Shown here piece by piece: positions 14,382 through 64,000 of a DNA stretch of 64,000 nucleotides. This DNA comes from Ulva prolifera (lineage: Eukaryota > Chlorophyta > Ulvophyceae > Ulvales > Ulvaceae). Below the pieces are notes generated by a model. It worked only from the letters and a program-made list of their open reading frames with translations. It did no database searches and had not been told where the DNA came from. How positions within the stretch are numbered: the first letter of the stretch is position 1; each line of letters starts with the position of its first letter. Where the stretch lies: the NCBI GenBank assembly GCA_023078555.1, contig CM041196.1, forward strand, positions 8,381,985 through 8,445,984, read 5' to 3'. The position numbers were made by a program, and so were the translations under genes.

Positions 14382-15254
14382 TGGACAGTGTTGGCAGGTA
14401 CACTATGTTTTGAACACAGATCCTCGAGGACGCAGCTGAGCTGTAAAATGACACTCCAAGAGATTCCTTATCGCATTTTGCGCGTTGACGGACGGTTTGT
14501 TGACGTGACAGGCCACCGAAGCTACACACCACTCAGTCAAACGTCCGGTAGAAAATTCCGCGGCGGTGACACAGATGCCGCCACAGATGCTCGCTTTGTC
14601 TAGTGAGTTCACCTGGGCCCGGTCGTGGCATCCATAGCTATGTGATCAATTCGCGTTCGCAATCAGACTTCACCGGGAGACTATCTCGTTTCCTCGAACC
14701 ACAAGTCAGATTAGCTCGACGGTGCACCCGCCATGGTAGCACACCAGAGCAGGTCAAACGTGGACTGCGTCTCCGCCTATGTATCACGTACGCCGATAGA
14801 CACTTCCATGAGCACTGGCCACAAGCACACTGCGTGCGGCCGAGACTGGCACTCTGCCACCCAGCTCCCTAGGCAGCTCAGTAGGTCAGGACTCCTTGGC
14901 GGTGCAGTGCTCCCTGAGCCTCCGACTTTGTGTCGCAGCACCAGATGTGTACTGAAAACGAGCCTTCCGGCAGGGCAGACTTCATGCACGAGGTGGCAGG
15001 GCTGATCACCCGGGAACATGAGGCAGCTAGTGTTAGGTTGGGAAGCAGAGCACAGTATGTGGTCACGACCAATGCACGCGACCGCCTGTGCTGTGAGGAA
15101 AACGTTACATTGTTCAAGCCGTGCAACTCCAAGTGGGCTGCCGATGGGCACTCACAACCGCCCACATGCACAGAACCATTACACCTGTGGGACCAGACCG
15201 ACCACGCACACAGTGCAGTTTGCGCCAGGCTGAATAACACAGCCGACGAGGTTA
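14382..15254. other. Intergenic region: RPN8 promoter and IBTK-like 3' UTR
   Basis: Both flanking genes are on the minus strand. TTACA at 15105-15109 (TGTAA on the minus strand) is a likely poly(A) signal for the IBTK-like gene. The open frames here lack motifs or splice support. Confidence 0.5.
15105..15109 (-). terminator. Putative TGTAA poly(A) signal of the IBTK-like gene
   Basis: TGTAA on the minus strand, about 146 nt beyond the stop codon at 15255. Confidence 0.45.
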
Positions 15255-18200: not shown

Positions 18201-21200
18201 GCGCAAACTGCAGCAGCGGCAGCGCGCTGCGCATGTCCACAACGCGCGCCGCGGCGATCTGCGCCATGTCGAACAGCCGCAGCACGCGGCCGCGCCCGTG
18301 CGGCAGCGGCTGCGCCGGGGCGGCCGCGCCCGCAGTCTCCTCACACTCCATCCTGCACATGCGGCAGCTTCTGTACGAGACCAGCAGACATGCATGTCTC
18401 GTCCGACGCGTTGCCACAGTGGCGCAGGGGCTGCCCCCCTGACCGACACCACAGGCAGTGTTGACATTGACCACCGCAACATGAGCCGGCTGCAGCTGCA
18501 CGTGCTGCTAAATACCAGCTGTGAGATGATCCTCAGCTTGTGCGTCGAGATATCAGGCTGTAATGTGCGTGCGATGATGGCGCACGTGATCCTTCTGTGC
18601 ATGCATGCGGGGGAGTACTAGAGGGGCTACGCCGCATGGCGTACGCACACCAGCAGCATGAGCTGCTGCTCGTGCTGTGCATGCTGCGGCGCACCCAAAC
18701 AGGTCGTCCTCCACATCCCCAGCCCCGGGCCCGTCGGCGGACGCGGGCTGCATGCCCCCGCCGCGGGGGCTCGCGCCGCGCGGCGAGTGCAGCACGTGGC
18801 GGCCGCTGCTGGCAAAGCTGTCGGCGAGCGAGTGCTGCAGCGGGCCGTCGCTCGGGGTGCGCACGCTGAGCTGGGCGGGCAGGGACTGCCGCGGCACGAA
18901 GGTGCCGCTGGGGCTGCTGCCGTACAGCGACCCGAGCGAGTCGGCGACCGGCGACGTGCCGAGCGTGGCCGCGATCGTCCGGGGCGCCGCGGACCTGCAG
19001 TGCAGGCATGCATGCGTTGGTGGTCAAGCGCGAGGGCGGGGAGGGATGTGCGCTCGGCGGTGGGGGTGGAGGCGCACCCGGCAGACGAGCGGCCGTGCTG
19101 CCTGCTGCGGAGGAGCGCGGCGAGTGCCTCGCTGCCCTCGTCCGAGACGCGCCGCTCCTCCTCCTCCTCCGCCGGGGACCCGGGCTCGTCTCGCCGGGGA
19201 GCCGCGTGCCTCGTCAGCACCGCAAGGTCCAGCGTTTCCGGCAGCTTCGGGACCCAGAACCCCTGCAGAACGGTCCCCGCTGACTATACGCACCCGGCAC
19301 AATGCAGGCGCTGTGCTGTGCAGCTGTGGAGTGAGGCGGGGGCAGCACCTGCAGAGCGACGGAGTGCCGCTCCCCGACGGCGACGGCGACGGCCCGGCGC
19401 AGGCCCTGCACGAGCTGTGGCACGATCCACACCGTCTGGTCAGCCGGCCGCGCCTCCTGCGCTGCGGCCGCCGCCTGCTGCCGCTTCTGCGCGAGCGCAT
19501 CTGCAGCACACACCGGCGGCCCTCATGGCGTGCAGACAGCGCACAGCCGCGCGACAGGTGGCACATGTCCGTACCCTCAAGCAGGGCTGTCGGCACCGCC
19601 AAATCGTGAACATGCTCGCCACTGCACTCACCGGACTAAACCCCGGCGCGAAAGCGAATAATTGCGCCTTGCATTTGCATGCGTGGCTACAGGGCAAGAG
19701 CGCACCTGACGACAGCGTGGTGCCCTCCCATGCATACACCTCCCCGGTGTCCGTCAGGGCCACCGTGCGCGTCTTGCCGGCCGCAATCTTAACCACACAC
19801 TTCCCCCCTAGCACGCCCTGCACCTCCTGGATGGCCTGCGCCGCATCGTCGCTGCGGTACGCGAGCACGGCGCCCGTGGAGGTGAGCATGCTGGTGTGCG
19901 CGCCCCCGGCCGCCACGGCCACGACCGTCGGCGTCACGACCGCCGCGTTGTCGCGGTGGAAGTGCACCCGCCCCCGCTCTGCCGCCGCGCCGCCGCTACT
20001 GCCGCCCCGGCGGCCGCTGCTCCACTTGGCTGCAGTGGCCGCGGCCGCGGCGAGCGAGAGGGCACGCACGGCCTTCGCGGAGCGGGCCGTGTCGCGCGTG
20101 CCTGCCACCTGCAGCCGCATCGGCGACACCTGCCGCTGACCCCACGCAAACACCTCGCCGGAGGTGGTGAGGGCGACCGAGTGGCGCTTCGAGAGGCTGA
20201 CCGCCGCGATCCGGCGGTCCCGCAGCGCGTCGACGACCCGCGGCGTCGCATTGCACGCGCGGCCGTGCGTCCCGTACCCCAGCTGCCCCTGCAGCCACAC
20301 GCCGTCCTCAGCACGCAGCGCGGCAGCGGTTGGCGGCTGCCGTGCAGGGCCTACAGGCGGGGCGCACCAGCGTGTTGTCCCCCCACATGTAGAGGCTGCC
20401 GGAGGGGGTCAGCGCGGCAGAGTGCTTGTTCGCAGCGGCCACGGACGACACCGGCTGCTTCAGGGTGCCGACGCGGCGCGGCGTCCACGCCGAGTCCGCG
20501 CCCGTGAACCCCAGGCGGCCGTGCCGGTTCGAGCCCCACGCCCACACAGCGCCCTCCTCCGCGCAGGCGAGCGTGTGGTGCTTCGCGGTCGCGACGCACA
20601 CGACGCGGTACCGGCTGAGGCCCGCAACCGGCAGGGGGTGGATCTGCGCCATGCCCCGCTGCGCGCCCTCGCCGGCAAATTCGGCGTGGCCGAGGCGGCC
20701 TCCGTGCCCCCAGCCCCACGTGTACAGCTGTCCGGCCCCACTGACTGCAGCGCTGTGGAACTTGGCGGCGGCGACCGCGACGATGGCCTCTCCCGCAAAC
20801 GCGTCGAGGCGCGAGGGAGCTGCGCGGCTCTCTGTCGACCCCGTGCCCAGCTGGTAGTTGGCCCCGCTGCCCCACACAAACACGCCTCCTGGGCGGGAGA
20901 AGTGCAGGTGGCCGCGGATGTCTTCAGCAGCGACCTCCAGTGCCGTCCGGTGCTGCAGGGTGCCAGCTGTCAGGCTGGGCCTGATCTGGGCCGCTACACC
21001 AGTCGCTGAGGGCTGCAGGTTCCTACGAAAAGGTTATTCGCGGGAGCGGAGCACACCTTGCGGTCCAACAAGGATGTGCTGGCGCCATGAGTCAACAGGA
21101 TAGCTGCAATGTGGACATGGCCCCAGTACAAGGCCTTGTGGAGGGCGGTCCTGCATGTGAGCAGCATGTGAAGCCCCTGCGTGGCGTCTAATGGCTGCAG

Positions 21201-23112: not shown

Positions 23113-24935
23113 ATGCGCTTAACTTCCATCCCCCTGTCACGATTTGCAGCTTCCACACGCTCTGGCCCTAGCAATCGTGCATACAGCATGTCGCAGAGCG
23201 CCGCAGGAAAATGCCTTTCGTGGAGCAGCCTCGGGACGCCGAGGGAACAGCTTGTACTGAAAAACACGCTACCAACCGGACAGTCATTTCGCTGGTTCCA
23301 CTATCCCGGCGATGCTGACTTTACAGGCGTTGTTGGGGAACGAGTGGTATGCTGTCGCGAGTGGTCAGTCTGCGTGTTTAAAGTTCGGCACTAGTGCGCG
23401 CTCCACGGAGCAGGTGACGTGTGCAGATCCAGATGAAACAAGAACACGACGATGTACAGTGGCGAGTCATCGCCAGAGGTAGCCAGGCTTCTCCTGGTGA
23501 GCAAACTGTCTATGTTCCGCACCGGCAACTGCCCCTCAGCCCGCCTGGCTGGATTCACCTCGCCAGCATCAAAGTCAGATTAATTTTGATGCAGATGGTG
23601 ATCTGATGGCCCTATCGGACTATTTTAATTTGGACGTGGATCTGGCGAAGCTGGCCAAGTATTGGTCATCTCAAGATCCGCACTATAGCTTTGTCAATCA
23701 GCACATTTTCGGTTGCCGAATGCTACGACAAGACCCCGTGGAATGCCTCTTTCAGTTCATATGCTCCTCAAACAATCACATCTCCCGAATTCATGGGATG
23801 GTGAACCACCTGTGCCGAGCTTACGGCACGAAGATGGAAATCAGCCAAGGTGAACCACCCCATGCCACGCCTGCATTGAAGTGCTCCGCCGCAGTGCACA
23901 TGCCGTGCAGCTGCTTCATATGGTGCCGGTGCCTTCAATGCACTGCATCATGCTGGGTCTGCACGATGGTGCCTCCACTAGCACGTGACACACTACGATG
24001 TAGATGACGCAGTTTCCTGTGGGCATGTGCAGGCATCGTCCAAGGTTCCGATGGCGAGGACGTTGATGCAATGTATGCCTTTCCAACGATCGAACAGCTG
24101 CAAGCTGTGACTGATGAGGATCTCAGGGCAAATGGATTCGGCTATAGAGCCGCCTACATCCGCACCACTGCCCAGCAGCTACACGCGATGCCACAAGGTG
24201 TGGACCTCGATATGCAGCTGTGAGGATGTTGCGTTACATGGCAAAAGCTCACTTGGGAGTGTGCACAGGTGGCCGAGAGTGGCTGCTACAGCTCCGTGAA
24301 AAGCCATTTGCGGAGGTCATCGAAGAGCTGACCCAGCTGGCAGGCGTCGGCCCCAAGGTGGCCGCATGTGTGGCACTGTTCTCCTGTGACAAGCACGACT
24401 CGATACCGGTGGACACACATGTCTGGAAGCTGGCTTGCCAGCGGTATTTGCCGGGGATGCGCAACAAGACACTGACGCCCAAGCTGCACCCTGTCATCAT
24501 GGAGGTATGTACTCTGCTGCATGCATCGGGCAAGTCTGAGGCCGCCAGAGCTCCCAGTGTTATGCTGTTCCCTATCAGATTTCACCACCCCAGGAACAGG
24601 GCCAACAGGTGTGACCGGAGCTTCACATTGGCATACATATGCAGGCGTTTGTCAAGGTTTTCGGGGACTATGCTGGCTGGGCTCACAACGCGCTCTTCAT
24701 CTCACAGCTCGCATCTCACAAACAGCTCCTTGATCCGTCAGCTATCTCTGCGTCCAGCAGTGCAAGCGACACCGTGGTCCTCGAGCGTGCCCCCTCCGGG
24801 AAGGCCTCGCAGTCGGTGTCGCCAGAGTCCAAGAAGCCGAAGAAGCTCTCCCTTGCGCCTCCAGCCAAAGGGTCGGCTAGACCCGCATCAACACGGGGAC
24901 GCAAGAGGAAGCTCACGTCAAAGCCTGATGTCTGA
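23113..24935 (+). CDS. OGG1: 8-oxoguanine DNA glycosylase/AP lyase OGG1
   Basis: Six exons (23113-23346, 23427-23478, 23595-23849, 24033-24197, 24269-24504, 24645-24935) join in phase to 410 residues. The N-terminal segment has the family GQSFRW motif, the middle has RQDPVECLFQFICSSNN, and the helix-hairpin-helix GPD region reads LAGVGPKVAACV followed by IPVDTHVWKLA. The Schiff-base lysine (Lys265) and catalytic aspartate (Asp284), matching human Lys249 and Asp268, are present. The enzyme removes 8-oxoguanine paired with C and nicks the strand in base-excision repair. The first 25 residues are rich in Arg/Ser without acidic residues and end at a second Met (23188), which suggests an organelle form and a shorter nuclear form. 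The C-terminus has basic KKPKK and RGRKRK clusters typical of nuclear localisation signals. Confidence 0.95.
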
Positions 24936-25642: not shown

Positions 25643-27131
25643 ATGTCTGCCTTGAAAAGCATTTGCGTCTTTTGTGGATCATCCACGGGCACGGATCCAG
25701 CGCATGCACGAGCCGCGCGGGACCTGGGGTCTGAGCTCGCCAGGAGAGGTATCAGGCTAGTGTACGGTGGTACGTGATACACCACGCTTTCAACCGCGCG
25801 TTCATCAGGCATCTTTGTATGAGAGGTCAATTTTGTTGAGCTCTGAGGCAACGGCGTTGCATTTTACAGCAACGCAGGTGTCGCAGTGCTGGCCCTGCCA
25901 CACCCACTGCCAGAAAACCTGGAGCCTACCTCACCAGTCCGGCTGCGTCAGTTACAACGCTTCTTAAGTTACATGAGACACGCGTGCCACTGTGGCTCAC
26001 GTTGATCGTCTAGGTGGGGCATGCACGAGACTGGCACCTGACAGCGACTCCAGTTCCTTGCCACTGCTACCCTTTTCAGGCTGGCCCTACATGCCGTTGA
26101 AGGCACATACATGGGCTGTGCACTGCAGCACAGCGCCTTGCACTTCAGCACGAGGCAGCTGCGAAGCATGCAACAAAACTGCAGCTGGCAGTGCCAGTTC
26201 TGCACAGCCCGAACGCCGCAACGGCTGCACGCGTAGACCAAGTCATTCAGATACACGCTCGCCTCCTTGGGATGCTGGTCGCCGCGCCACCTCGCCTCTG
26301 GCCACTCTCACTGCATACACGCACGCATGGGAGTAACACTGGCAACAGCCTCTGCACGGCTGCGGCCACCCGCTGTTGCTGCGCCGGGGTACGCCATGAG
26401 CGTGCTCGTGCATGCACAGTGGCCAACAGCGGTGCGCTGCGCCGTGCAGGCGGCAACGTGGGGCTGATGGGGGCCGTGGCGCGGGCCGCCCGCGACGGCG
26501 GCGGCGCCGTCCTCGGGGTCATCCCGCGGGAGCTGATGCCGCGGGAGGTGAGCGGCGAGATGATCGGCGAGACGCGCATAGCGCGCGACATGCATGACCG
26601 CAAGGCGACGATGGCGGCGGAGGCCGACGCGTTCATCGCGCTGCCGGGCGGCTACGGCACCCTGGAGGAGCTCATGGAGATCGTGACGTGGCAGCAGCTC
26701 GGCTACCACGGCAAGCCCGTCGGCATCCTCAACACCGCCGACTTCTACCGCCACTTCCTCACCTTCCTCGACCACTGCGAAGGCCAGGTGCGTGCTGTGC
26801 GTGCTGCGTGTGCGCAAGCAGCCACCTTCAGATGTGCCTGTGTTCGACGTGCAGCGCTCAACCCACGCAGGTCTGAGACGCTGCACGTCGGAGCCCCAAG
26901 CCACAATCCTTCAGGTCAGAATGTGGGAGCCTGGACGGGCGCCCCACGAGTGCATGTAGAGGGGAGCGAGGGGGTTGTGCGCGCGTGCAGGGGTTTCTGC
27001 GCAAGGGCTGCCGCCAGATCCTGATAGAGCGCGAGGACGGCACGGAGCTCATCGAGGCGCTCGCTGCGTACACCGCGCCGCCGTCGGTGATCGAGGTCAT
27101 CAGGCAGGAGAACGCCGGCGCAGACGCGTGA
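25643..27131 (+). CDS. LOG: LOG-family cytokinin riboside 5'-monophosphate phosphoribohydrolase
   Basis: Three exons (25643-25769, 26450-26787, 26991-27131) join in phase to 201 residues; plant LOG enzymes have about 215. The N-terminus reads [12 protein letters not shown], intron 1 splits the [12 protein letters not shown] loop, and the two family signatures are intact: MHDRK (90-94) and PGGYGTLEE (108-116), which carry the catalytic Arg93 and Glu116. LOG converts inactive cytokinin nucleotides to free bases in one step. Related bacterial proteins share the fold, so a general purine-nucleotide hydrolase role is possible. Intron 1 is unusually long (680 nt) for this window. The start ATG at 25643 gives the usual short N-terminus; no targeting peptide is seen, which suggests a cytosolic protein. 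Confidence 0.92.
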
Positions 27132-28252: not shown

Positions 28253-30263
28253 TCACAGGCCGAGGTCTGCGACGGCGGCCTCCACGGCGGCCTCCTCGCG
28301 CATCATGCGCTTGAACTTCTTCAGGGCCTCGCGGTGCTTCTTGCTCGTCTCGTGGTTCTGCAGCGCCTTCTCGCTGCGGTACACCTTGTTGCACACGACG
28401 CACTCAAAGTCCTGCACACACGGCCTCGCTGACCCGTTCCCGTCTGAGCGCTGCATCCGGCTCGGCGGCACAGGCCACGGCCGACGCCCTCGAGACACCG
28501 CCGGAGCCTGCCGGACAGTAGGGCATGCAGCCGCCCCGTGACGGTGGAGGCCTGCGCCACATGCATGCGGCGCGCGTGTGTTGCCGGTGCCGGCTCAACG
28601 GGAACAGCTGCGGGTGTGTGGGGGCCGCACCTGGCGGTCGACGTCGTCGGGCGCCTCGGCATCCAGCGCCCGCAGCTGCTCCTCCTCGGCGGCGCGGATC
28701 CACTCGGCGTCCTGGTACGCGGCAGCCGCGGCCTGCCGCGCGCCCTGCTCCGCTGCCCGCCGCTCCTCGGCCGCGGCCTGCCGCGCGGCCTTGCGCTCCT
28801 GCTCGAGCGCCTGCAGCGCGCTGGCGTGAATCAGTGACGTGCTCGCTTGTCCGCTGTCAGCGCACTCACGGCCACGCACGTGTGCGAGTCTGGTCGTGGT
28901 CGTCGCGGAACAGCCGCCTCAGGCGCCCAGCACCACAACATCTCAGCTGAGCAGCAGCGCCAGCTGCTGGCTCAGGCTCGTGCAATGCTGCAGCACGACT
29001 GACTGCACAGACATCAGCCCGAGGCACAGCGCTGCCAATGGCTGCGGTGTCAGGGCTATCGACTTACCACCAGACCCGCCAGCTGGTGGGTCTGCAGAGG
29101 CACCTTTGCTTTGGGGCGAACGGAATGGCAAGCGCTATGCCACTATCTGGCAGTACTGATTGAGCACCAGACGGACACCGCATCACTCCGCTGTGGTCGT
29201 CGAGTGACCAGCCAATTTCTCGACGAGCCCTCCCGTGATGATGCGCGGCAGGTCGATGCGTGCACGTGCACAGCTGGGTGCGTGAGACGGAGGGTCTGGG
29301 GGGCGCACCGCGAAGGCCTCCATGCGGACGTCGAGCGCGCGCACCCAGCGCACGAGGTCGCGGACCTCCGCGACGAATGCGAGCTTCCCGGCCTTGCGGG
29401 CCTTGCTGTTCTCCGCCTCCATCAGCCGCCGCACGCGCCGCCCCGGCGCGGCGCTAGCGTTGTACACGTCCAGCCAGGCAAAGTCCTTTACGGTCTGGAA
29501 GTTGCTCCAGAAGGCGTAAAAGTCGCGGACGAAGTCCTCTGATGAGGAGGACAGCCCAAAGTTCGGGGCGGATGCGGGCGCAGCGGTCTTGGCTGCTCCG
29601 GACGCTGCCTTCTGGCGCTTGAAGGCAGCGACCTCCTGCTCTGCGATGACGTTGAACAGAGCGCGGTACACTGCGAAGAAGCCCTTGTCGCTGTCGTCGA
29701 AGCTGGTGTAGCAGCTGGTGGTGGTGTGGAACGCAAAGTTGATCGGAGCATCGGGTGGCTCCGCCGGCCCGTCACCGCCTGCCCCTGCCTGATGCCTTGA
29801 GCCAGAGGTGAGGATCTGGTTGCGATGGGAGTCATACCAAGCTCGCTCCTGGAGAAGGGCGTTGCATCAGTACGTGGCTGATGGGCACCAGGGAGGTCAC
29901 CGGGACCGGTGCACACCTGCGGGTCTGACAGCACCTCCCAAGCATTCTGAATCTCTTGAAAGCGTTCCTGTGCGTCCTCGTTATCAGCATTTTTGTCTGC
30001 ATGGCACATTGGGTGCTTTCAACGGCGATGCACGATGCCAGCCTGGCTTCCGAGACTCTGCCCAGGCGCTGCCAGCAGGTGGTCAATGAATGTCCCGCAG
30101 CTGTCGGAAGCCTGACACAGTGGCAAGGAGACATACAGGCCTCATGCAATATGAAATTGTGCATACCTGGGTGCCATTGCAGCGCTAATTTTCTATACTG
30201 CTTCTTTATTGCGGAAGCCTCGGCAGTGCTTTCGACGTCGAGCACCTCGTACAAACACCTCAT
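28253..30263 (-). CDS. DNAJC21/JJJ1-type J-domain co-chaperone with C2H2 zinc finger
   Basis: Five exons (30263-30167, 29996-29917, 29848-29309, 28810-28631, 28411-28253) join in phase to 351 residues. The J domain starts MRCLYEVLDV and intron 1 splits the HPD motif (31-33), followed by ERAWYDSHRNQIL. The region FYAFWSNFQTVKDFAW is the family-specific DnaJ extension. An Ala/Glu-rich helix then leads to one C2H2 finger of the nucleic-acid-binding JAZ type (Cys303, Cys306, His319, His325). JJJ1/DNAJC21 works with Hsp70 in cytoplasmic maturation of the large ribosomal subunit, releasing Arx1/PA2G4. Human (531 aa) and yeast (590 aa) proteins are longer and may carry a second finger; here an in-frame TGA ends the protein after one. 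A further downstream exon was not found. Confidence 0.9.
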
Positions 30264-31768
30264 CGTCACCAAGTTGGAAAACAGCCACCGTTGCAGCTCC
30301 GTTGATTCGTTACTGTTGTTCGGTGATACCGTGCGAGCGGATTGCGTTGCTCCGCGGACCTCACGGCAGGCGCATTGGGCCGACAGTGTCCACGGGTGTG
30401 TTGATCGCTATGCCACCAGCCGCGGTCCAGGTAAAGCTCAGGAATGCTTGCACTTGCAATGGGGCAGCTCAAGTTCCGTCGCTGGTTTGCAAACGGAATC
30501 AGTCAAGCTGTCCCATGTTTGCTGACTGTCACGACTGATGGACGACCCTGGCTACTGAGACTGCCAGATCTACATGATGCACATGCTGCCTGTGACCATG
30601 ATCCCGTGCCTGCAATCTTTCCGAAGCCAAAATCAAGAGCCACAGATAACGGAGGTCCACGGCACAGCCCAGCGGCCTGCCCAGCTCCCAGACAGATGCA
30701 TAATCACAGCATTACACGGCAAGGCGTTGCTCGCTGAACCCAGGACATTCAAGACACCCTCACATTTGCACATCCACAGGAAACCGCACTTGAACTGTAG
30801 CAGTCACGATGCTCGAGGTTGTTTTCGAGCAAGTACGTTTGCACAGGCGCCATCGCCCAATCAGGCGGCCCTCACCTCACCACAGCCTCACCACCTCCAG
30901 CACAGGCACTCCACTGCCAGCAGACACTGCCACACGCAGGACCATCCTCTCTGCCACTGCTGCGGCCAGCTGGGCCCGAAGAGGGCCGGCAGCGTACACA
31001 GTGCGTCCCCCAGGCTGCTCGCTGTGGACAGCATGCTGAGGCGGACATCGGCGGACGCGTCCGCCCGAGCCGGGGCCACAGCCAGCGCTGCACATTACCC
31101 CCCGCACGCCACGGCGTCTGCAACCACGGGAGCACGCCCCATGCATGGTCGCCGGGCCCTGTGTTCTGCGGACAGCACCGCCGCGCGGCCGCACAGCCGG
31201 AGCTGCCCCGCAGCAGCGCAGCACGGCACACGCGTTTTACACACCCCCACCGCGGCGGCACCCTACTGCTGCGCACGGCCGCCACGCTGCCAAGCCGGCC
31301 AATGCGCGCATCGCCGCGCCTTCACGGCGTGATACACGGTGTCGTCCACGGAGCGGAGCGGAGCCTGGCACGATCCAGGGCGGCCAGCTCGGGGGCGGGG
31401 GGCTGCCGGAGCGGCTGTGGGGGTCGCCGCCACGCTGCCCTGCCGGCCAATGCGCGCATCGCCGCGCCTTCACGACGTGATACACGGTGTCGTCCACGGA
31501 GCGGAGCGGAGCCTGGCACGATCCAGGGCGGCCAGCTCGGGGGCGGGGGGCTGCCGGAGCGGCTGTGGGGGTCGCCGCCACGCTGCCCTGCCGGCCAATG
31601 CGCGCATCGCCGCGCCTTCACGACGTGATACACGGTGTCGTCCACGGAGCGGAGCGGAGCCTGGCACGATCCAGGGCGGCCAGCTCGGGGGCGGGGGGCT
31701 GCCGGAGCGGCTGTGGGGGTCGCCGCCGTGCTGCCGCTCCGGCCTGCCGGGGTGGGCCCGCCCGCGCA
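30264..31768. other. Intergenic region with 148-bp tandem array
   Basis: It lies between the start of the DnaJ-type gene and the stop of the next minus-strand gene. The left part shows no supported exon. The right third is the tandem array at about 31279-31735, described separately. Confidence 0.5.
31279..31735. repeat. Tandem array, about 3.1 copies of a 148-bp unit
   Basis: The marker AATGCGCGCA recurs at 31301, 31449 and 31597, exactly 148 bp apart. Copies 2 and 3 appear identical over most of their length, and copy 1 differs by a few bases. A fourth, broken start is seen near 31720. The unit is very GC-rich and not a multiple of three, so it is unlikely to be a coding repeat. It ends about 35 bp beyond the stop codon of the gene at 31769-35177, so it sits in or next to that gene's 3' UTR. 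Confidence 0.9.
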
Positions 31769-52323: not shown

Positions 52324-55300
52324 ATGATGTCGCCTCTGATGAACGTACTTGTGCCACTGCTGGCGTTGGCCGTGGGCTGGGCTCCACTGGTGCTTGCAGA
52401 CGCAACCATCCAGCAGGTCGCAACGCAGCAAGAGCTGAAGCAAGCGATAGTGACGGGAGCATCCAATATCGTTCTTGTCGCCAACATCACTCTCGATGAA
52501 GCTACCTTCCCAGGTGCGCACTGCTCGGCCAGTTGGGGCAGAAGCCTAAAGTCACAGTGCCCCCACATGCGCACATTGTGAGAACGACGATGTCACTTAA
52601 CAAACATGTACTGATGTGAGATGGCTGCAAGATGGTGTTCTGTGGCCATTGCGATTGTCCGTGCTCTCCGCTCACAATGACAAAGCAGGTGCCAAAACGC
52701 CAGATGGATGGCAGACCGGCGACTTGACATACCAAGTCCGCTAAGGGGCGTAATTTGATGCCGATTCGGAGCTTTCATGACATCGCATGTGTCGGGTATC
52801 GTCGCGAACGCTGAAGTGGTGTGCAGAACCTCCTGCGACCTGCCTGCGCAGCGACACCACGATCGAAGCCTTCACTGAATGTGCCAGCAATGCTGTCGTT
52901 TATGCTGCACCACCAGGCTCCAATTCTACAGCGGCCACGTGGAGAGCTCTCGACGGAGTTGTCCTCGACGCACGATTCCTGTTCCGCGGCATTATCCTGG
53001 CTCGCGACCTCAACATCGAACGCGTAACCATTGCGCAGGTGCTTCATTGCTGTGACTTCCCGTCGTTGGTGTGACTGTGTGCCCTCATCCCGGCCGACTG
53101 TGTTTGTGCCTCGCCTGGCCCTCCCATGCCAGGCCCCTGCGAGGCATCCATCCGCTGCCAGGCCAGCGCTGGAGCCTTGCCCACAGTGTGGAAGGCCACC
53201 TACAGATTTCTCGCTTTCATCAGGCACGGCAGCAGCTGTGCCGCTGCACCTGTGCCTTGCTCGCCTGCCGGCCAGGACTGGCGAGGCATGTGGTGCGCAT
53301 GCGGCCCTGACAGGCCGTGCTCAGCTCCCCCGGGTCCTGCTCTGCACCCAAACTGGCCTCTGGTCACTGCACCAGTCAGAGCCGCGTCACGCCGCCGCTG
53401 CATGCAGATGCTGGACGACCATAACCCCTTCTACTTCCTCTTTGGCGTCCTCGGCCGCGCGCAGCTGCTGATGCGGGACTGCACATTCCTCTCGCCCTGC
53501 GGCGGCCGCGGCCCGCGCGACCTCGTCGACTCCATCCTCGCCGCGTCGCCCGACGATCTCAAGTTCGAGCCATCCGGGCAGGTCGCGTCGCAGGTGCTCA
53601 CAGTCGATGCCCTCCAAGGCGTCCCCCTCGAGGGCTTCCCCAACAGCCTCATCGGGGCGGTCCGTGCCAAGATCATGTGCCACGACCCCGCCAACAACTC
53701 CTTCGCCCCGACGCAGCCGCCGGCCCTGTGGTCGCCTGCGGCTGCGGCTGCGGACGTGATCGAGTCCGACACCTGCCAGCGCCCGGAGACGCTCGGCGCG
53801 GACTACCGCGGCACCGTCAGCACGACGGCCAGCGGCGCTGCGTGCCAGCTGTGGAGCCAGCAGACGCAGCCGGTGCGTCACCACCCCCGGCGTCGTGCAG
53901 CCGTCCCCCCACATGTGGCGCGCGTGTCTAAGCGCGTGGTGCCCGCCCTGTGCAGAATCGCACGATGACCCCCGAGCTGCTGCCGACCTTTGGTCTTGGC
54001 GCCCCCGACGCGCCGCACAACCACTGCCGCAACCCCGACCGCTCGCGGGGCGTCTGGTGCTACGTCGACAGCCCCGGCAGCGGCCGCGAGTTCTGCGACG
54101 TGCCGCCGTGCCCCGCCGAGATCCAGCTCACCAGTGCCCCGCTGCTCGGCGGCGGCGCCGCCGCTGCGCTGTCGCCCGGCGCTGACGCCAACGGCGCCGC
54201 GGGCCCCGCCGCAGCCGCCACAGCCGATGTGGCCCCAGCAGGAGGCGGCGACGACGGCCTGAGTGAGGTGCGTGCCTCTCAGCTGCACTGCCGGCAGCGG
54301 CTGCGTGTGCGCCGGTGTGCGCCGTGACGTGTGGCGTCCCACCGTCCGCCACACGGGCTCTGCATGCTCTCGGAGCTCTGCAGGAACGTGCCACCCCGAA
54401 CAGTGCCGTCTCAGTTTTTCCGTTCGAGAGCACTCTGCTGGCACAGCAGGCCGCTGATGCCGCCGCGGGTGCACGTGCAGGGCGGCAAGTGGGGCATCAT
54501 CGCCGCGGCGATTGTGCTCGGGCTGCTGCTCGCGGCCGGCGTTTGGCTGTGGTGCCGCGAGGGCGGCTGCCCGTGTGGCGACGTGCCGGTACGCACCGAC
54601 TACGAGAAGGAGCTCGTCGCGCGGCACGAGCTCGAGCACCCGCGCACGGACGTCACCGTTGAGCTCGACGGCAGCTCCGCGCTCGAGGGCTCCGGCATGG
54701 TGCTGCTGCACAAGGGCGGCGGCCAGGGCGGGCACGGGCTGCCGGCGGGGGGCATCGCGAGCGGCGCGAGCGGCCTCAGCGCCGGCGGCGTGCTCGCGTC
54801 GCCGCCCGTCACGTTTGACGGCGAGCTGCGGCGCACGATGACGGACGGCGGCAGCCAGTCGCAGGTGCGGCCGCACCCTGTGTCGCTGCGGCGCTGTGCC
54901 ACCTGGTGCCCGGGCTGTGTGGGGGCGAGGGGACCTGTCCACGGGCCGGCGGCGTGCCCGTGCTGTTGTTCACCTGCGGCACGGCAGCGCGTACGCCGTG
55001 CACGCGCTGCCTCCGCTGACCCCGCCCGGTGTGGCGTGGCCGGCTGCTGTGTGGCAGCTGTGTGGTGGTCGTTGCGGTTCGCCGGCGGCGCAGCGCTGCT
55101 CCATGGTTGAGCGCTGCTGGCGGGCGGCATTGGTTTACCCATGCATTGGTGACCAGAGGAGGGGCGGTATGTGTGTGCAGCTGCAAGTGCTGGACGAGAT
55201 CGGGCGCGGCGCGTACGGCGTCGTGCACAGCGGCACGTGGAAGACGCTGCGCGTCGTCGTCAAGAAGATCCCCTTCCCCAGCGGCTTCGGCGGCAGCGCG

Positions 55301-58300
55301 CCGACCGAGTACGCCAACTCCGCCTGGTCCTGCGCCCACCCCAACATCATCAAGACCTTCCACTGCGAGGTGTGTGCCCCCTGGCTGTGCTCCCGTGATG
55401 CCTCGCAGGCAGCGGCGTGAGAGCGCGCGGCCGCACGCATGCGCCCCAGCGGCGAGCCCCCACGGCCCATGCGTGCAGGTCCAGGCGGCGCCGGCATCGG
55501 CCGACGGCAGTACGCATGACGAGGTGCTCTACATGGCGCACGAGTACTGCGACGGCGGCAACCTCGAGCAGGCCACGCACGCCGGTGCGCCCCCGCTCCC
55601 CCGCACGCTCGGCGGCCCCGCCCTGCCATGCATGCACCGCTGACCGCCCGGTGCTCTGCAGGCTTCTTCCTCATCAGCCGCAACCCCCTGGACTTCCACC
55701 AGCGCCACATCATCCAGGTCGTCTGGGAGCTCGCCGTCGGCCTGCAGTTCGTGCACTCCCGCAACGAGGCCCACGGTGCGCCGCCCCAGGCCACTCGCGT
55801 GTGCACCGCCGCGCGCGCTCCCGGCTTCCGCACTCAAGGCCCCATCTGCCCCCGCTGACATGCTTGTTTGCAGTCTGCGGCCGGTGCTCCGGCATGCGAT
55901 GGCCGGTGCTGGTGTGGTGTGGCGCGCACTTCGTGGGGCCCGCCGCTGACCGCCTCTCCGCCTGCAGGGGACCTGCACCCGCGGAACGTGCTGTTCAAGG
56001 CGTATGTGCAGTCCGCGCGCGCCGCGAGCAAGACGCTGTCGCTCGCCGAGGCGCACTCGCAGCCGCACGTGCGCGACGTCTACTCCGCGCTCGCCCGCGG
56101 CTTCATCACGAAGCTCACCGATGCCGGCCTCGCGCTCAAGATGTGGGCGGCCGGGGAGGAGCTGCCGGCGCACTATGATGAAACCCTGCGCTTCTACACC
56201 GCACCGGCGCGCCCCCCCCTCCCGCATGCGTCTTGCCACACGGCTCGGTGTCCGCTCGTCTTGCGTCGGTGTTGTCAACACAGACGGCCACCCACCCACA
56301 CGCCGGTGCCCCGCCGTCCCTCAGCCTTCATTCAATGCCGGTAGCAACCGCCTGTCACGGGAACGTTAACACGGAGTTGTCAAGGTCCAGTCGCATACGG
56401 CTCAGTCAATTCAGATTTATTTTGCTTCACGTCTCGTACACGCATGGCACTGATGCATGTCGCGGCATGCAGGAGGTGCTGGAGTACAACACATACAGCA
56501 AGGCCGCGGACGTGTACTCCCTCGGGGCGATCCTCTGGGAGATCCTGCACAGCAAGCCGTGCTACCGCCGCACCGTCGTCGGCTTCCCCGTGCGGCACCC
56601 CGACTTTCCCAAGTTCTCAGACTCGGCGCCGCTGCCGTACGCCGCGCTCACCGCGGCCTGCCTGCACAGCAACCCCAGCCTCCGGTGCGGGCCCCCCTTA
56701 CTGCTGCTGAGTTGCCGGGCCGGCGCACGAGCGTAGCGAATGGGCAGTGTGGTGAGAGGGGTGTGCGTATGCACGCATGATTACAAAGGCACCTTCACGG
56801 GGAAGTCGTCACCTGCGATGGCCGGAGCACCTTGATGTGTGTGATACCTGCAGGCCGACGATGGACGAGGTGGTTGCGGTGCTCCAGGACCTGTTCACGG
56901 TGCCGGGGGAGGACTCGGCGCACCTGACGCCGGCAGGGGACACAAATGGCGCGGCGGATGCGGACGGGGGCACGCACATCACGCCGCTCGTGCGCCGCGT
57001 GCTGGGCTCGGATGCCGAGGTCTTCCGTCGGGCGCCGCACTGGCGGGGTGCGGCCCGCGCGGGGGTGCCGTGTCACAATCACGTGAATCTGTGTCTACTT
57101 GGCTGTAGCGTTTCGGACGGCCTCCGGATGCCCGGGACGACATCGGCGTGCGTGAGTGCGGACTGCATGACACCCATGCGTCGGTGGTGGTGCAGGGGTG
57201 CTCGAGGACCTGAATGGCATCAGCAGCAACCACATCCTGGACCTGCTGACAAAGGTGAAGCTCACGGACATCATCAACCTACCGGCGCCGACGCAGGGCA
57301 CGCCGCAGGCGCCGGCGGCCAAGTCGGCGTCCGCGAGCCCCTCCCGCGGCACCCCCGGCGGCCTCTCGCCGCTCGGCAACGGCCACGCCGTGCACCCTGG
57401 CGCGCCGGCCGCACGCGAGGCGTGGGACGACGCGCTGCTGCCGGGCGCAGATGACGACGACGAGGACGGCGGCGGTGGCGGTGGGGGGGGGGCAGGGGCG
57501 GCCGCAGCGGTAGGGGGGGTGACGCGAGGGGCGCCGTTCCAGCCGACGGCGCTGCAGAGCACGCTGGACACGTCGCCGGAGCTCGGGCACACGATGCGGC
57601 ACGCCGGCAGCGTGACGTCGGCGGAGGAGAGCGACGGGTTCCAGGACGCGATGGAGGAGCTCGTCAGCGACGGCTCGTTCTTCATGTGCGCGCCTGGATC
57701 CTCAGATGCATAACAACGCGTGTGGTCGCGGCCTCGCTGCTGTGTTGGCGGGGCAGACGGTCGTGCTGCCGCCGCCGGGCTCTCGCCTACAGGGCGTGTT
57801 CGCGTGCGTGCAGGGTGCTCATGCATGTGTGGCATGCGTGCGGAGCTCACCGGCGCGCCTCGTTTGCAGGGGTGGGGATTCGCGGTCGTCGCAGAAGGGG
57901 CGCTCGCGGCGCTCCGCGACGGCGCCGTCCACGGCTGCGGCCGGCAAGCGCATGCGGCCGCTGGAGGGCCTCCGCGGCTTTGACGGCATCGCCGGGCCGG
58001 CGCTGAGCGACGGCCTCGGGCGCGAGCAGACGGGCCGCACGAGCGTCGGCAGCACCGGCGCCGCGGCGTCGACGTCGGCCGCAATGCTGCGGCGGCCGCG
58101 CTCCGGCGGCCAGACGCCACCGGTCACCGGCGACCTCGTGTCGTCACGCTCCAACGTGTCGGTGCACTCGGACTGGGACCACATGGAGGGCCGCGCGATG
58201 TTTGTGCGCGACGATTTCACAGGCAAGACGCACCTGCAGATGCAGCGCGTGGCGCAGGCGGCGCGGAGCCGCAAGGACAGCCTGTCACACGGCGCCCACC

Positions 58301-61300
58301 TGTCAAGCACGGCGCTGACGAGTGCAACGTCTGCGGCCGAGTCGGCGCCGGGGACGCCGGAGAAGAGCCACACGATCGACGCGCTGCTGAGTGAGCGGGC
58401 GGACGCGCTCGGCACGGGCGACGTCATGCACGCGGGCATCAGCGGGGAGGTGGGGGGGGCGTACGTGGATGTGGGGGGCCTGGGGCTGGCGAGCCGGCCG
58501 CGGGCGGCGGCGCGGCGCTCGTCCGCCGCGAGCGCGCACGACCACTCACCTTCCAACTCAGAGCGCCTGCTGGCGCACGAGGCGCTGATGGTGCCGGAGC
58601 AGCGGCAGCGGCCGCCGCTGCCGCCGCCGGCCGTCACAGACGCTGACGAGGAGAGCCAATGTGCGCACGCACACCTGCCTCGGCCGCCTCTGTGCTGCTG
58701 CCCCCCCCTCTTGCGATGCGTGCTCACTGCCTCGGTGCTGTTGCAGTGGACGTGCTGCGCTGGGCGCCCGCGGCGCGCGCACAGTCGTCGTCGCACGGCG
58801 CCGCCCGCCTCTCGGCCGCCGGCGCGCTCGACTCCGGCACGCACACGCACTCACAGGTCTCGGCGTCGCACCCCAACTCTGGCGCGTCGCAGGCGTCACA
58901 GGCCTCGCTCGTCAGCACGCAGGCATCCCTCGTCACCACACAGGCTGCGGCGGCCGCAGCCGCCGCCGCGGCGGCTGCGGCACTCTCCGTCAGCCGGCCG
59001 CGCGTCTCCGAGCACGGCGTGCGTGCCGGCGACACCGCGACCGCGCCGTCCACGGCGCGCACGCCCGCCACGACGCTCGACCGGCTGCCGCCGGTGCCCG
59101 CCGGCCCGCGCAGCAGTGACTTCCCGCACAGCGCGCCGCCAGAGGCGCCGCTGCGCGGCGGCTTGCGCTCGTCCGAGTCGGCGGCGGCCCCCGCCGGCCG
59201 CGCCGCCGCGCGGCCGGCCCCGTCCGGCCGCATGTCCTTGGGCCCGTACTCCTCCGAGAGCGTGTCAGGCGGCGGCGCGCGGCCGCCGGTCGCGCTCGGC
59301 GCGCTACGCTCGCCGCTGAGCGCAGACGGCGCGGACCTCAGCGGCCCGAGCATCGTTGTGAAGGGCCGCCCGGCGCGCTCCGTGGACGGCACCGGGCCGC
59401 GGCTGTCCAACGCGGTCGGGGAGTTCCGGCCGATGGTGATGCGCGGCGACCGTGCGAACTCGTTCACCGGCGACATCCGGTCAGGCGGCGTGGCTGTGAG
59501 CGGCAACGTCGCGAGCTTCGCGTCTACGCGTCTCTCCCCCGTCGCCTCGCGCACTGAGGACGGTCCCGGCAGCCAGAAGGGAATGGGCCTGCGGTCGCTC
59601 TTCGATTCGTTCAATGGGTCCGAGGTGGACGAGCCGCTGAGTGCCCGCGAGGTGGAGGGGGCGCTGGACGGCGACCGCAGCAAGGCCCTCGCCGCGGGCG
59701 CGGCGCTCAACGGCGGCGCGGACCCACCCACGAACGGCCGCACAGCGGCTGCGGAGGGCCCGGCCGCCAGGAAGGCCGGCGGGGGCAAGGGCAAGCGCGG
59801 AAAGCGCGGCAACGGCCTTGATGTCGCGCTCGGGCTGTCCGGGGATGTGGTGCGCCCCCACGCACGGCCTGCGCTGCCTGTGTTTGACCCTCCCTTGTGG
59901 TACACTCTTCCCACGCGCCAGCTGTGACGACACGTTACGGACATGCATGGAGATGCAAAAGAGTGTTCCGGAAGCATCCGGAATGACCCCCACATCAGCA
60001 CATGAGCACATGCCTGACGGCGCGCGGGTCCCTGTCAGCAGCGGTCGCCAGACCGTCTTGCTTATGCAAGACGAGCTATCGCCAACATCCTGGATATGTC
60101 TCCTGCGGTAGCTGGAGCTCCTTAGTGATCTGCCTACCATAGCAAGAGCTCTGCCGAATGAACGCGGTGGGAGTCTCTGGTGACAACGGGGAGCAGTGCG
60201 CTGAGCGTAGCGCTCTGTGGCCGGTGTCGTACACAGGCTCACTTGTACTATATACGCAGCTGGAGCAGCTGCCGGCTGACTTCAAGGGTAGACAACAGAT
60301 CTCATACTCAATGACTCTTGACTTGCCAGTCTTTACACCAGCCCATGCATTCCATCCTTGCGAGCCGATCACTGCGTGTGCGCTTCGGCAGCACACCAGC
60401 GGACCGCCTCGCACTCTGCGCAACCACCCCCTGTCATCCGCGCCCCTGGAATCCCGGTGAGAGGAGGCCCCCGCTGGTGGGGAGCTGCCGAGGTCGGCGG
60501 TGCTGCATGCGAGCTCCCTGCGCCGCTGCATGCCGACATGGTGCGCCGTGCAGGCCAACAGCAGCGGCAGCGACGGCTCGCCGCTGTCGATGCGCGGCCT
60601 CGACGTCTCGCACGTCGGCTCCAGCGTCGACGTGCAGTCACCGGGCGACATGGCGTCGTTCGAGGCCGCCGCCGCCGCCGCGCCGACCGCGACCGCCGAG
60701 CTCATGTCTCCGGCGCTGTCCACCGGCTCGGCGTCCGCCGCGGCCCCCGCGGCTGCGCCCGCCAGCGGCGGGTCCGCCGTCGACGGCATCGACCTCAAGC
60801 CCAAGCCCGGGCTGTCGGCGGCTGCCGCGGGCATCATGCCGCGGCGCGGCGGCTCCGGCGGCGGCGGCGCGCGCATCGCCGGCGACATGATGCAGCGCGG
60901 CGGCCGCCGCGGCGGCGATGGCGGCGCGCCGAAGCTGCCCGGCGGCTCCGGCAAGGGCTCCAAGTCGCCGCTGCTGCCGAGCTCGAAGGAGGAGGCAGCC
61001 CCGGGCGGCGGCAAGGCCAACGTCAAGAACTACGTGCACCCGCTGCTGCGCAACAACCGCGCCGCGATCGCCCACGTCGAGCGCATCCAGCGCCGCGGCA
61101 CGAACGACGGCAGCGGCCACAGCTCCGAGCACCCGCACCTCGTGCGCGCCCGCCCCGGTCGTGTCATTGTGCTACCTGTTGATGCAGTCACCGTAACAAT
61201 CGATGCGTGTAAGCCCCGCCTGGCCTTGTTTTGGTCGAGTCACATGGTCACCTCATGTTGCTGGCCTGGTGCGTGGCTGTGGCCTCGGGCGGTGCGTAAC

Positions 61301-61423
61301 GGGCGGCGCTGGGTGGTGCAGGCAGAGGGAGTGGACTCGTCCGACAACCCCCGCGAGTCTGGCAGCCGGACGGCATCGGCCCCCAACTCGCACGGCGCCG
61401 GTTCGGCGGAACGCGCGGGGTAA
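52324..61423 (+). CDS. Kringle-domain receptor-like protein kinase with long disordered cytoplasmic tail
   Basis: Sixteen exons (52324-52513, 52827-53038, 53408-53872, 53956-54267, 54481-54864, 55181-55369, 55479-55584, 55662-55775, 55968-56206, 56473-56684, 56854-57047, 57196-57685, 57870-58660, 58747-59849, 60554-61141, 61322-61423) join in phase to 1896 residues. Residues 1-25 are a signal peptide ending VLA. The ectodomain has repeated small/hydrophobic strands and then a kringle (257-341) with six cysteines at 257, 280, 313, 324, 336 and 341, plus YRG, CQLW, CRNPD, WCYV and CDVPPC. A membrane span lies at about 398-417. The kinase (about 522-830) has GRGAYGVV, Lys549, HPNI, HGDLHPRN, DAG, APE, DVYSLG and RPTMDE. 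The Ser/Ala/Gly-rich tail has no domain. The exon 9 donor is GC, not GT. An exon between the first two may be missed. Confidence 0.82.
56363..56430 (+). mobile_element. SINE-like repeat, diverged 3' fragment (copy E)
   Basis: About 68 bp match the conserved 3' part (GGAGTTGTCAAGGTCCAG, then TACGGCTCAGTCAATTCAG and a T-rich tail). It lies in the kinase-gene intron between exons 9 and 10, about 40 nt before the acceptor. Confidence 0.6.
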
Positions 61424-62830
61424 GCGCGGCGCATCGCGGGCGGCGCGGGCGACCGGTGGCGACGCGTGCCAGGCCATGATGAGTATGATGAAAGTGATGT
61501 GGTTTATTTTTCCCCATGCGAGCGGTTGATCCAGCCACTGCAGGCCCGGGCTGCCTGGCAGGCGGACGCCGGCTCAGCCGCGAGCCATGCGTGTCACGCC
61601 CGCAGCTCCGCACCTCCAGGGCGGGGGCCGGCCCTCCTCTGAGTCGCAGCCTGATTTCGTGACCCCTTTGCATGAGTGCGCGCCTCTGCGGCTGAGTGTC
61701 GTGACACAGGCGCGGAGCGTGGCAGGCATGCGGGAACTTTCTTTCCCCCGTTTTGCTCACCGTTTTGAACGCTCTCGGGAAAACGGATGGTGATGATTGA
61801 ACATGGCCGTCCAGTGTAATGCCTGCTGTGTGCCCTGCTCGTGTGGCTGTTGCGCTGGAGGGTCGGCGATGCTCTCAGACACGCCCCCTGCACGCTCAGC
61901 ATATTCGCCACCATCTGGTGCAGTCCCCAGTCGAATGCAGGCCTGTCCGCCGAGGCTGTCATGCGTCCTGCGCATGGTTTCCTGCAACCTCTGCGGCAGT
62001 GCGTTCTGGGGAAGCGTGTATTTCCGCCACCTCGGTGAAGGGGGGCACCTCCACGGACCTGCACGAAACGCCAAACATGGGTGTATTCCACATGCATAGA
62101 CAGAGCACTCCCATGCGACGAACAGCCAAGGTTGATCCGTCTTCGATGTGGCGCTGGTGTGCCCTGCAAAGTTGATTGCGTGCACTGCCGTTTTGCTAGA
62201 CGCCTGGCTGTCAGCCTAGCCCTGCTATTTCCTGATTACTGCTGATTTCCGGCCCCGATGCCTCGACTAGGGGTGCTGACCACAGTGCTCAGATTCCGAA
62301 TCGCCACGTACTGAAGAAGGGTACTTACAGCATCGATGGTGTGTTATTTGGGAAATTCAATACAACATATTCGAGGTTGTAATACCCAGCTTTTTCGGCG
62401 TCTGATTTTCAATGACCTTTCATCAGATCTTGGAATGCTGCTTGGCCTTGTCAGGTGATGGGCGACTGCGGGTCCCACTGACAGAGGCGATGCCCCTCCT
62501 TGCCGGCCGGCCTATTTGAAGGCGGCCAGTGCTGCACAGCCGCAGCTGGCAGCTCGAATTGCTTCCACAGACACGACAGGCTGGATACCATTTGCATGCA
62601 TGTGGCAGTGCCGCCCTCGTCTTGTTGGGACAGGCAGAGCTCTGCGGGAAGAGGCAGCGCCCCCGATCGCTGCATGTCAGCACTTGCCACTGATCAGGCC
62701 AATCGGTGTGTTGTCACTATGCATCAACTAATGTACAGCTGAGTTGTCTCTGCTTAGGCGTGTCCTTGAGATGACGTTGACACGTCTCTGGAGGACCACA
62801 ACCACATGCGTGGGATGCAGGTACATATGT
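61424..62830. other. 3' flank of the kringle-kinase gene, no further gene seen
   Basis: TGTAA at 61815-61819 is a plausible poly(A) signal about 390 nt past the stop. The remaining open frames are short and without motifs. Confidence 0.45.
61815..61819 (+). terminator. Putative TGTAA poly(A) signal of the kringle-kinase gene
   Basis: First clear TGTAA after the stop at 61423. Assignment rests on position only. Confidence 0.4.
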
Positions 62831-62916
62831 CGGCATATGTGGTCCCATTAATTCGGAGTTGTCAATGTCCAATAGGATACGGCTCAGTAAATTCAGATTT
62901 TACTTTACTTTACATA
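62831..62916 (+). mobile_element. SINE-like repeat, 3' fragment (copy D)
   Basis: Near-identical to copy C in GPN1 intron 3, with the same left end and the same tail (CAGATTTTACTTTACTTTAC). The common left end suggests a truncated subfamily or one shared source copy. Confidence 0.7.
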
Positions 62917-64000
62917 CCTCTAAAATCACTTGCGTAGTGCCCCTTGAAGGAGACGATGCAGCTTGTTTAAGACTAGCAGCTGTTTGAGCCTGAGTGCCCA
63001 ACACTGTGCGGGCTGGATGTACACCGCAGCAGAGCTGCAGGTGTGCTGTGCCTAGGCGCGGTCAGACCTGAGCATTCATTTGCAAAGTTCATCAGAGCCA
63101 CGCTCCGTCCAGGGGCAAGCAGCTGAGCAGCAGAGTCCACAATCACCGGCGCTGTCGCAACACACAACCCGGGTCGTGGCCTCACAGCAGATGGGCAGCA
63201 TGCGATGTGTGTGGACCATGATCGTGCGCACATTGGCACTGATATCGTTCACTGTGCATGAGCCAGGGGGACTTGGGCTGCTTGTACCGTGGAAAGGAGC
63301 CAGTGCTGCGCTGGTGCATGGATGCCTGAGGCTGTGGTGATGCGAGCACATGATGCACATAGGCCATGGCTGTGGCCGGCGCGGGTGCTGCCGTTGCGTG
63401 GGTGTGTTGGTGTGTGCTGCGTGTGGCTCGTTACGTGTGGCTCGTTGCGTGGTGTGGGTTCCTCTGGTTGTTGCTCGCTAGGCTACCTGCCTTGCTTGCT
63501 TGGTCCTTGTAACACATAGGCCATGTTGCCACAGGTACTCACGAGGGATCAACACATCACACCTCGGGGTGGGTTGGAGGCTCCCAAGCCATAGCCAGCA
63601 TAAAAATATGCTGTATAGACGCCAGAATAATGTGCCGTGAGCTGTTGAAACGGGGAGAGGCCTGCAGAGTTGTTGTAGACCACAAGTCAATGCTGATCAT
63701 GCATCAGATGCAGCGACTGCAATTAGCCATGGTGGAGATATAGTTCAGCTTACAGCATACCAATCGAACATGCTGAAAGGCTGCTGCGTCCTGGCATGAA
63801 GGGCACCATAGCTTACGTGTAGCTACACTGTTCACTGTCAGGACACAGCGGCCCTGAGCTCATGTGGAGGACCGAGGTGGCAGTGGCAGCAAAGGACAAT
63901 GTGTGGCATACCTCATGCACCGGCTCCAGGTATGCACCGCACAGCACAGCACAGCACTGTGTACGTGGCTGCTGCCGGCAGTCGCTGCCGGCAAACGTTC
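62917..64000. other. End of window, no supported gene
   Basis: A short imperfect minisatellite lies around 63390-63460 (two GTGTGGCTCGTT units in GT-rich sequence). No coding or RNA feature is supported. Confidence 0.4.

Follow-up and report, generated by a model that had tools for sequence, protein, structure and literature searches.

A 64,000-nucleotide stretch of the Ulva prolifera genome (GenBank assembly GCA_023078555.1, contig CM041196.1, positions 8,381,985 to 8,445,984 of the forward strand; here called the window) carries a gene, which we name KRK1, whose product is very probably a type I, single-pass receptor-like kinase that bears a kringle in its ectodomain, a member of a family of Ulva-type green seaweeds most likely assembled in the green lineage. 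The kringle is a small fold known above all from blood-clotting proteins of animals, and little is known of green-seaweed receptors that couple the wall to signalling. No description of kringle receptors in algae was found in the open-licence literature as covered by titles and the starts of abstracts, a scope outside which the U. mutabilis genome paper lies; kringle receptor kinase proteins are already present in the public gene set of U. mutabilis. In a review of the macroalgal matrix, the best 12 of 18 places name seaweed receptor kinases for brown algae only (PMC8307928).

The KRK1 gene model was rebuilt from the raw sequence using splice sites (Table 1). Its frame is open from the ATG at 52324 to the TAA at 61423, and the predicted product has 1903 residues. 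Fourteen of the 15 introns are GT-AG and one is GC-AG (56207-56472), the latter being included because the kinase APE motif can be read only when it is spliced. TGCAG closes every one of the 15 acceptors and GTGCG opens 11 of the 15 donors, while the last donor (GTCATT, 61163) is weak and, within the low-complexity tail, splice sites are predicted only. The introns within and 3' of the kringle are in phase 0, among them intron 4, with ends GTGCGT and GTGCAG. A sequence-only reading of this DNA had given the same coordinates, with the kringle in exons 3-4 and the membrane-kinase part in exons 5-11, and both the splice model and Pfam bear this out. Retention of intron 4 would extend the frame through 54268-54327 to a stop at 54327, and a secreted kringle form lacking the membrane span is conceivable.

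The Pfam Kringle profile (PF00051) matched residues 263-341 of the joined exons with 66.0 bits (cut-off 34.3; E 3.8e-18), covering profile positions 5-79 of 79. The spliced model holds six kringle cysteines, at residues 257, 280, 313, 324, 336 and 341, with YRG, CxxW, CRNPD and WCY in the expected order, and can be aligned with plasminogen kringles, in agreement with the complete six-cysteine kringle with ordered motifs that had been read from the letters. In an unspliced scan the two kringle exons scored 37.3 and 27.9 bits individually. The same profile matched none of 14 control genomes, which is a weak control for a eukaryotic domain. A phmmer search of the PDB, whose figures refer to the best 60 of 90 sequences, matched the KRK1 kringle to those of plasminogen, apolipoprotein(a), prothrombin, HGF, ROR1 and ROR2; the whole five-kringle plasminogen chain gave an E of 2.7e-64 (best kringle, 52.6 bits), and the scores were 59.3 bits for plasminogen kringle 4, 52.4 for ROR1, 49.5 for ROR2 and 48.9 for single-kringle HGF. 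Judged by its sequence, the KRK1 domain is a genuine kringle and not a chance resemblance.

The remainder of the predicted protein has the parts of a membrane receptor. Hydropathy gave a signal-peptide-like peak of 2.05 at residues 6-24 and a membrane-span peak of 2.52 at residues 398-416, between kringle and kinase, and a peak in the latter place was found in all seven sequences scanned (the damaged KRK3, described below, lay outside the scan). Pkinase matched residues 523-815 with 93.5 bits (E 1.8e-26), and PK_Tyr_Ser-Thr covered the same stretch with 88.1 bits; the Kringle and Pkinase profiles, which the sequence-only reading had proposed running on the joined exons, both scored above their cut-offs. 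The kinase keeps the GRGAYGVV glycine loop, the ATP Lys (VVVKK), the catalytic Asp (HGD), the metal Asp (TDAG) and APE. Its nearest solved kinases in the PDB search were TAK1 (E 3.3e-15), a member of the TKL kinase group. Over residues 1-1036, Pfam at E<=1 found only Kringle, Pkinase and PK_Tyr_Ser-Thr, with no Frizzled or Ig domain, and the long, low-complexity tail gave no Pfam match at E<=0.01.

An end-to-end counterpart exists in U. mutabilis. UM060_0085.1 (P0036; 1884 aa, a JGI gene model in EukProt) aligns with KRK1 over its whole length at 75% identity (1390 of 1847 aligned residues), with the same domains and all six kringle cysteines, although it is 19 residues shorter and differs in the start region. 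The kinases are 89% identical (306 residues) and the ectodomains 61-64%, as would be expected of a constrained kinase and a faster-changing sensor ectodomain. Since this protein was annotated separately, independently of our splice model, and the paralogues described below show the same order, we take KRK1 to be one gene; the earlier proposal that a single green-algal gene joins a signal peptide to a kringle, a membrane span and a kinase is upheld by the order that orthologue and paralogues share.

The family extends beyond this pair. In the window's genome (88.9 Mb, 44 contigs), the Pfam Kringle profile gave five matches at four loci at E<=1e-3, three of the matches being above cut-off; the order kringle, membrane span, kinase is found in KRK1 and at two further loci (KRK2 and KRK4), the fourth (KRK3) being damaged. 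At KRK2 (contig C4, about 5.559 Mb) a signal-like start precedes kringle, membrane span and kinase, and the ectodomain is 65% identical to that of U. mutabilis UM040_0023. In KRK4 (contig C1, about 12.599 Mb) the kringle, with a script-picked junction, scored 40.4 bits and is followed by a membrane span and a kinase; no start was found for it, and the N-terminal part bears no likeness to that of KRK1. KRK3 (contig C4, about 5.549 Mb) is the counterpart of UM040_0028, of which residues 309-576 (the last two kringle cysteines, the membrane span and the juxtamembrane region) are unmatched in KRK3, where 548 bases separate the kringle and kinase exons (C4:5549704-5550251); this gap would be a deletion or an assembly fault. 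Both Pfam profiles, Kringle and Pkinase, scored above cut-off in KRK1, KRK2, KRK4, UM060_0085, UM040_0023, UM040_0027 and UM040_0028.

The last three of these (P0024, P0026 and P0029, respectively) resemble KRK1 in having an N-terminal extracellular domain, a kringle, a membrane span and a kinase, but their ectodomains are 27-31% identical to those of KRK1 and UM060_0085.1, and the kinase of UM040_0027 and UM040_0028 is of another type (HRDLKPxN, IDFG). A signal-peptide-like peak rose above the hydropathy threshold in P0026 and P0029 and not in P0024. The ectodomain of UM040_0027 is 84% identical to that of UM040_0023 and its kinase 94% identical to that of UM040_0028, and therefore ectodomains and kinases seem to have been exchanged between neighbouring U. 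mutabilis genes. The second intron lies at the same place and in the same phase (0) in KRK1 and KRK2. Shared phases of the first two introns were considered as proof of common descent of these genes and rejected, since the likelier junction of the first KRK2 intron, between FPE and VPEEC as in UM040_0023, is in phase 0 and that of KRK1 in phase 1.

Three protein searches placed the family among other kringle proteins. One with an 826-residue query retained two matches among 7994 candidates, a protein with Notch repeats and a kringle, and a kinase from Chlorella, its length limits excluding the 1884-residue UM060_0085.1. With the KRK2 kringle, 33 of 36 candidates passed, mostly animal kringle proteins together with one diatom protein and three U. 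mutabilis proteins with kinase and kringle, and with the KRK1 kringle (7 of 65 passing) UM060_0085.1 was found. Proteins combining kinase and kringle thus numbered 0 of 2, 3 of 33 and 1 of 7, all from U. mutabilis; animal ROR proteins were absent from all three lists, so that the searches are non-exhaustive. Outside animals, kringles were found in the diatom protein P0004 and in environmental proteins. Ichthyosporean LOX proteins also contain kringles, according to a passage of PMC4448552.

A kringle tree was built under a simple LG+G4 model from 75 of 137 kringle domains, belonging to 45 proteins, over 79 columns; two kringles each were retained from P0020 and P0022, and 14 proteins were omitted, either to balance the set or as close duplicates (P0003, P0006, P0007, P0008, P0016-P0019, P0021, P0023, P0025, P0027, P0033 and P0039). 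With 29 of 72 inner branches open and the bootstrap not settled, this tree resolves too little for an age of the domain to be read from it. The eight Ulva-type kringles were split among three positions, and at least two changes of the Ulva label are required by the starred branches; a single clade of the eight was not rejected (approximately unbiased (AU) test, p 0.298). The KRK4 kringle and the diatom kringle P0004_k8, both long branches, were joined on a starred branch (98/93).

The binding face of the kringle differs among the paralogues. We take the lysine-site positions of plasminogen kringle 4 to be D55, D/E57, W62, F/Y64, R71 and W/Y72. The corresponding residues are D,S,W,Y,G,R in KRK1 and UM060_0085.1, D,E,W,Y,R,W in KRK2, UM040_0023 and UM040_0027, D,G,W,Y,G,R in UM040_0028 and L,M,W,Y,F,I in KRK4; UM040_0023 and UM040_0027 thus keep the site, whereas UM040_0028 does not. 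The replacement of D57, R71 and W72 speaks against a plasminogen-type lysine-binding kringle in KRK1, for which a lysine-type ligand is unlikely on these residues, while one for the KRK2 group is possible. Retention of the site in the KRK2 group and its loss in KRK1 therefore suggests that the two bind different ligands.

Several observations weigh against the view of KRK1 as a working receptor kinase of one green-lineage family. Its kinase looks TKL-like by similarity, not from a kinome tree. The N-terminal domain, conceivably a beta-helix, had no Pfam match at E<=1, a genome search with it returned only itself at E<=0.01, and its likeness to the N-terminal domains of the KRK2 group in direct comparison is weak (25-29% identity, 35-44 bits). 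The best match to the KRK1 kinase elsewhere in the genome is a kinase at C3:11274217-11275195 (E 2.8e-21) that is not in a kringle gene, no kringle being found within 9.5 kb around it; this kinase outranks the KRK2 exon (7.4e-11), the ranks of such an exon-by-exon search being rough, and the joining of the kringle ectodomain to kinases may have happened on more than one occasion. The two AlphaFold models, both of the relative P0029, are of low confidence, with a mean predicted local distance difference test (pLDDT) score of 37.4 and 40.6 and a kringle block at 44-65 in the second, too uncertain for distances between the cysteines of an expected 1-6, 2-4, 3-5 disulfide pattern; in Foldseek the first 31 PDB matches of that second model all contained kringles (best E 3.7e-4), for a low-confidence model whose input alignment included animal kringles. 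Lastly, DFG is replaced by DAG in KRK1 (DSG in UM060_0085.1) and the catalytic-loop Lys by His (HGDLHPRN), and the activity of the kinase may be low or unusual. The presence of these two replacements in both species is what favours a pseudokinase receptor, whose kringle ectodomain would signal by scaffolding with little or no phosphotransfer. We think this unlikely, as the glycine loop, the ATP Lys, the HGD Asp, the DAG Asp and APE are all retained, the kinase is strongly conserved between the species, and the translations of KRK2 (DFG) and KRK4 (DLG and the loop Lys) are closer to the usual motifs.

That two adjacent genes, exons 1-4 for a secreted protein with a kringle and exons 5-16 for a membrane kinase, were misread as one is extremely improbable: the stop reached by retaining intron 4 means that a secreted form is possible from KRK1, but exon 5 begins merely 213 bases after exon 4, intron 4 is in phase 0 with GTGCGT and GTGCAG ends, and kringle, membrane span and kinase follow each other in four U. 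mutabilis proteins and at two further U. prolifera loci. On the orthologue, the paralogues and the 213-base gap we reject the two-gene reading. We give hardly any more credit to a place for KRK1 within the ROR/MuSK receptor tyrosine kinases of animals, or to its horizontal transfer from them. Its parts follow the ROR/MuSK order, HGDLHPRN carries the Arg at D+4 that is typical of the catalytic loop of tyrosine kinases, and the ROR1 and ROR2 kringles score little below plasminogen kringle 4 and above single-kringle HGF; against this, residues 1-1036 contain no Frizzled or Ig domain at E<=1, the best solved relatives of the kinase are TAK1 and not ROR, and the introns in and after the kringle are in phase 0, unlike the phase-1 introns that flank animal kringle modules. 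On the missing Frizzled and Ig domains we reject ROR/MuSK membership; the kinase itself looks TKL-like by similarity. Because these domains are absent, the kinase looks TKL-like and the N-terminal domain is different, the receptor layout was most likely assembled separately from ROR/MuSK; of the earlier alternative, "convergent or very old", the independent assembly of the layout stands, while the kringle tree is too poorly resolved for dating. Acquisition of the green-lineage kringle itself by transfer from an animal or a stramenopile we hold to be somewhat unlikely. U. mutabilis is the sole green-lineage species among the organism-named kringle matches, but the searches were of limited sensitivity and other green algae may hold kringles too; the kringles of P0004 and of environmental proteins and the starred KRK4-P0004_k8 branch point towards transfer, though both branches are long, whereas no starred branch groups the KRK1 or KRK2-group kringles with any animal set and a single clade of the eight Ulva-type kringles was not rejected. 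As for a phage source of the kringle, the phage collection gave no match at E 1e-5.

If KRK1 is, as we propose, a receptor-like kinase of a green-lineage family, its N-terminal domain and kringle would face the cell wall or the outside medium, and the ectodomain would bind a secreted protein or a wall component; binding would alter receptor clustering or conformation, and the TKL-like kinase would then phosphorylate itself, the tail or a partner. The kringle would be the binding module, probably not a lysine receptor of plasminogen type, and the KRK2-group paralogues, with their lysine-site residues kept, probably have another binding partner. Assembly of the family most likely took place within the green lineage, apart from animal ROR/MuSK, and tandem duplication and the exchange of ectodomains and kinases would later have changed it. 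Ulva walls are described as rich in sulfated ulvan (PMC8307928, PMC9266709), and a passage of the genome paper of U. compressa points to plant wall proteins mixed with matrix proteins of animal type (PMC9266709); such an ulvan-rich wall with mixed matrix proteins makes a wall ligand plausible for KRK1. A wider proposal, which we put forward tentatively and rate at somewhat under an even chance, is that in Ulva-type seaweeds the kringle serves as the sensing module of home-grown receptor kinases for the wall or secreted signals, that the ligands of the paralogues differ (a lysine-type site in the KRK2 group only, as opposed to KRK1), that two kinase types were joined to it, and that animals built theirs independently.

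Table 1. Features of KRK1 and of neighbouring genes (window positions)
Feature	Position	Strand	Basis
KRK1, whole coding gene; 16 exons, ~1903 aa	52324..61423	+	splice model, alignment with U. mutabilis UM060_0085.1
Exon 1: ATG, hydrophobic signal peptide, start of N-terminal domain	52324..52513	+	splice model, hydropathy
Exon 2: N-terminal extracellular domain	52827..53038	+	splice model, orthologue alignment
Exon 3: remainder of N-terminal domain, first part of kringle (C1 257, C2 280)	53408..53872	+	splice model, Pfam
Kringle part 1 (CQRPETLGADYRG...CQLWSQQTQP)	53774..53872	+	Pfam Kringle
Kringle part 2 (NRTMTPE...CRNPD...WCYV...CDVPPC; C3 313, C4 324, C5 336, C6 341)	53956..54111	+	Pfam Kringle
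Exon 4: remainder of kringle, A/G-rich linker	53956..54267	+	splice model
Exon 5: membrane span, juxtamembrane region	54481..54864	+	splice model
Predicted membrane span, core GIIAAAIVLGLLLAAGVWL	54490..54549	+	hydropathy; span kept in U. mutabilis
Exon 6: kinase start, glycine loop GRGAYGVV, Lys of VVVKK	55181..55369	+	splice model, Pfam, motifs
Kinase domain (exons 6-11): HGDLHPRN, TDAG replacing DFG, APE spanning the GC-AG intron	55184..56875	+	Pfam Pkinase, motifs
Exon 7	55479..55584	+	splice model
Exon 8	55662..55775	+	splice model
Exon 9: catalytic loop, TDAG	55968..56206	+	splice model
GC-AG intron, between YTAP and EVLEY	56207..56472	+	splice model; orthologue continuous there: FYTAPEVLEYNT
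Exon 10	56473..56684	+	splice model
Exon 11: end of kinase domain	56854..57047	+	splice model
Exon 12: tail	57196..57685	+	splice model, orthologue alignment
Exon 13: tail	57870..58660	+	splice model, orthologue alignment
Exon 14: tail	58747..59849	+	splice model, orthologue alignment
Exon 15: tail; uncertain 3' splice junction	60554..61162	+	splice model, orthologue alignment
Exon 16: end of tail, stop codon	61322..61423	+	splice model, orthologue alignment
Neighbouring gene, ATP_bind_1 domain	7053-7670	+	Pfam
Neighbouring gene, JAB/MPN domain	14148-14402	-	Pfam
Neighbouring gene, RCC1 domain	20311-21033	-	Pfam
Neighbouring gene, OGG_N domain	23501-24004	+	Pfam
Neighbouring gene, DnaJ domain	29835-30407	-	Pfam

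Elsewhere in the window, a Pfam scan left 3 of 10 open reading frames without a match. An AT-rich short repeat lies at 56405-56425, within the GC-AG intron of KRK1, with a second copy at 7590-7610 (3 mismatches) and pieces related in translation at 62781-62984; it is possibly a small mobile element. A LOG-like gene was also found (26101-27021, + strand; PF03641, E 6.3e-37), of a family that we take to consist of cytokinin-activating enzymes. Its presence contrasts with the U. compressa genome paper, a passage of which reports no cytokinin synthesis enzymes (PMC9266709).

Wall sensing, or the response to secreted or bacterial signals, gains candidate receptors from this small and conserved family in a multicellular alga that is tractable, and the Ulva kringle kinases give an independent way of testing what a kinase receptor gains from its kringle. 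Among known proteins, Chlorella vulgaris D9Q98_002667 (P0002) resembles KRK1 in its kinase (about 30-31% identity over about 230 residues) and its HGDL-type catalytic loop, but lists no kringle among its Pfam domains. Plasminogen and apolipoprotein(a) share the six-cysteine kringle pattern and were the best PDB sequence matches among the best 60 of 90, as well as the best structure matches of the low-confidence P0029 model; unlike them, KRK1 has no protease domain, and its D57, R71 and W72 are replaced. ROR1, ROR2 and MuSK are alike in having an extracellular kringle, one membrane span and a cytoplasmic kinase, so that the ROR/MuSK-like layout proposed by the sequence-only reading holds for the general order of parts. 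It does not extend to their composition, since ROR and MuSK carry Frizzled-like and Ig domains and a tyrosine kinase, whereas KRK1 has neither domain, a different N-terminal domain and a kinase that looks TKL-like.

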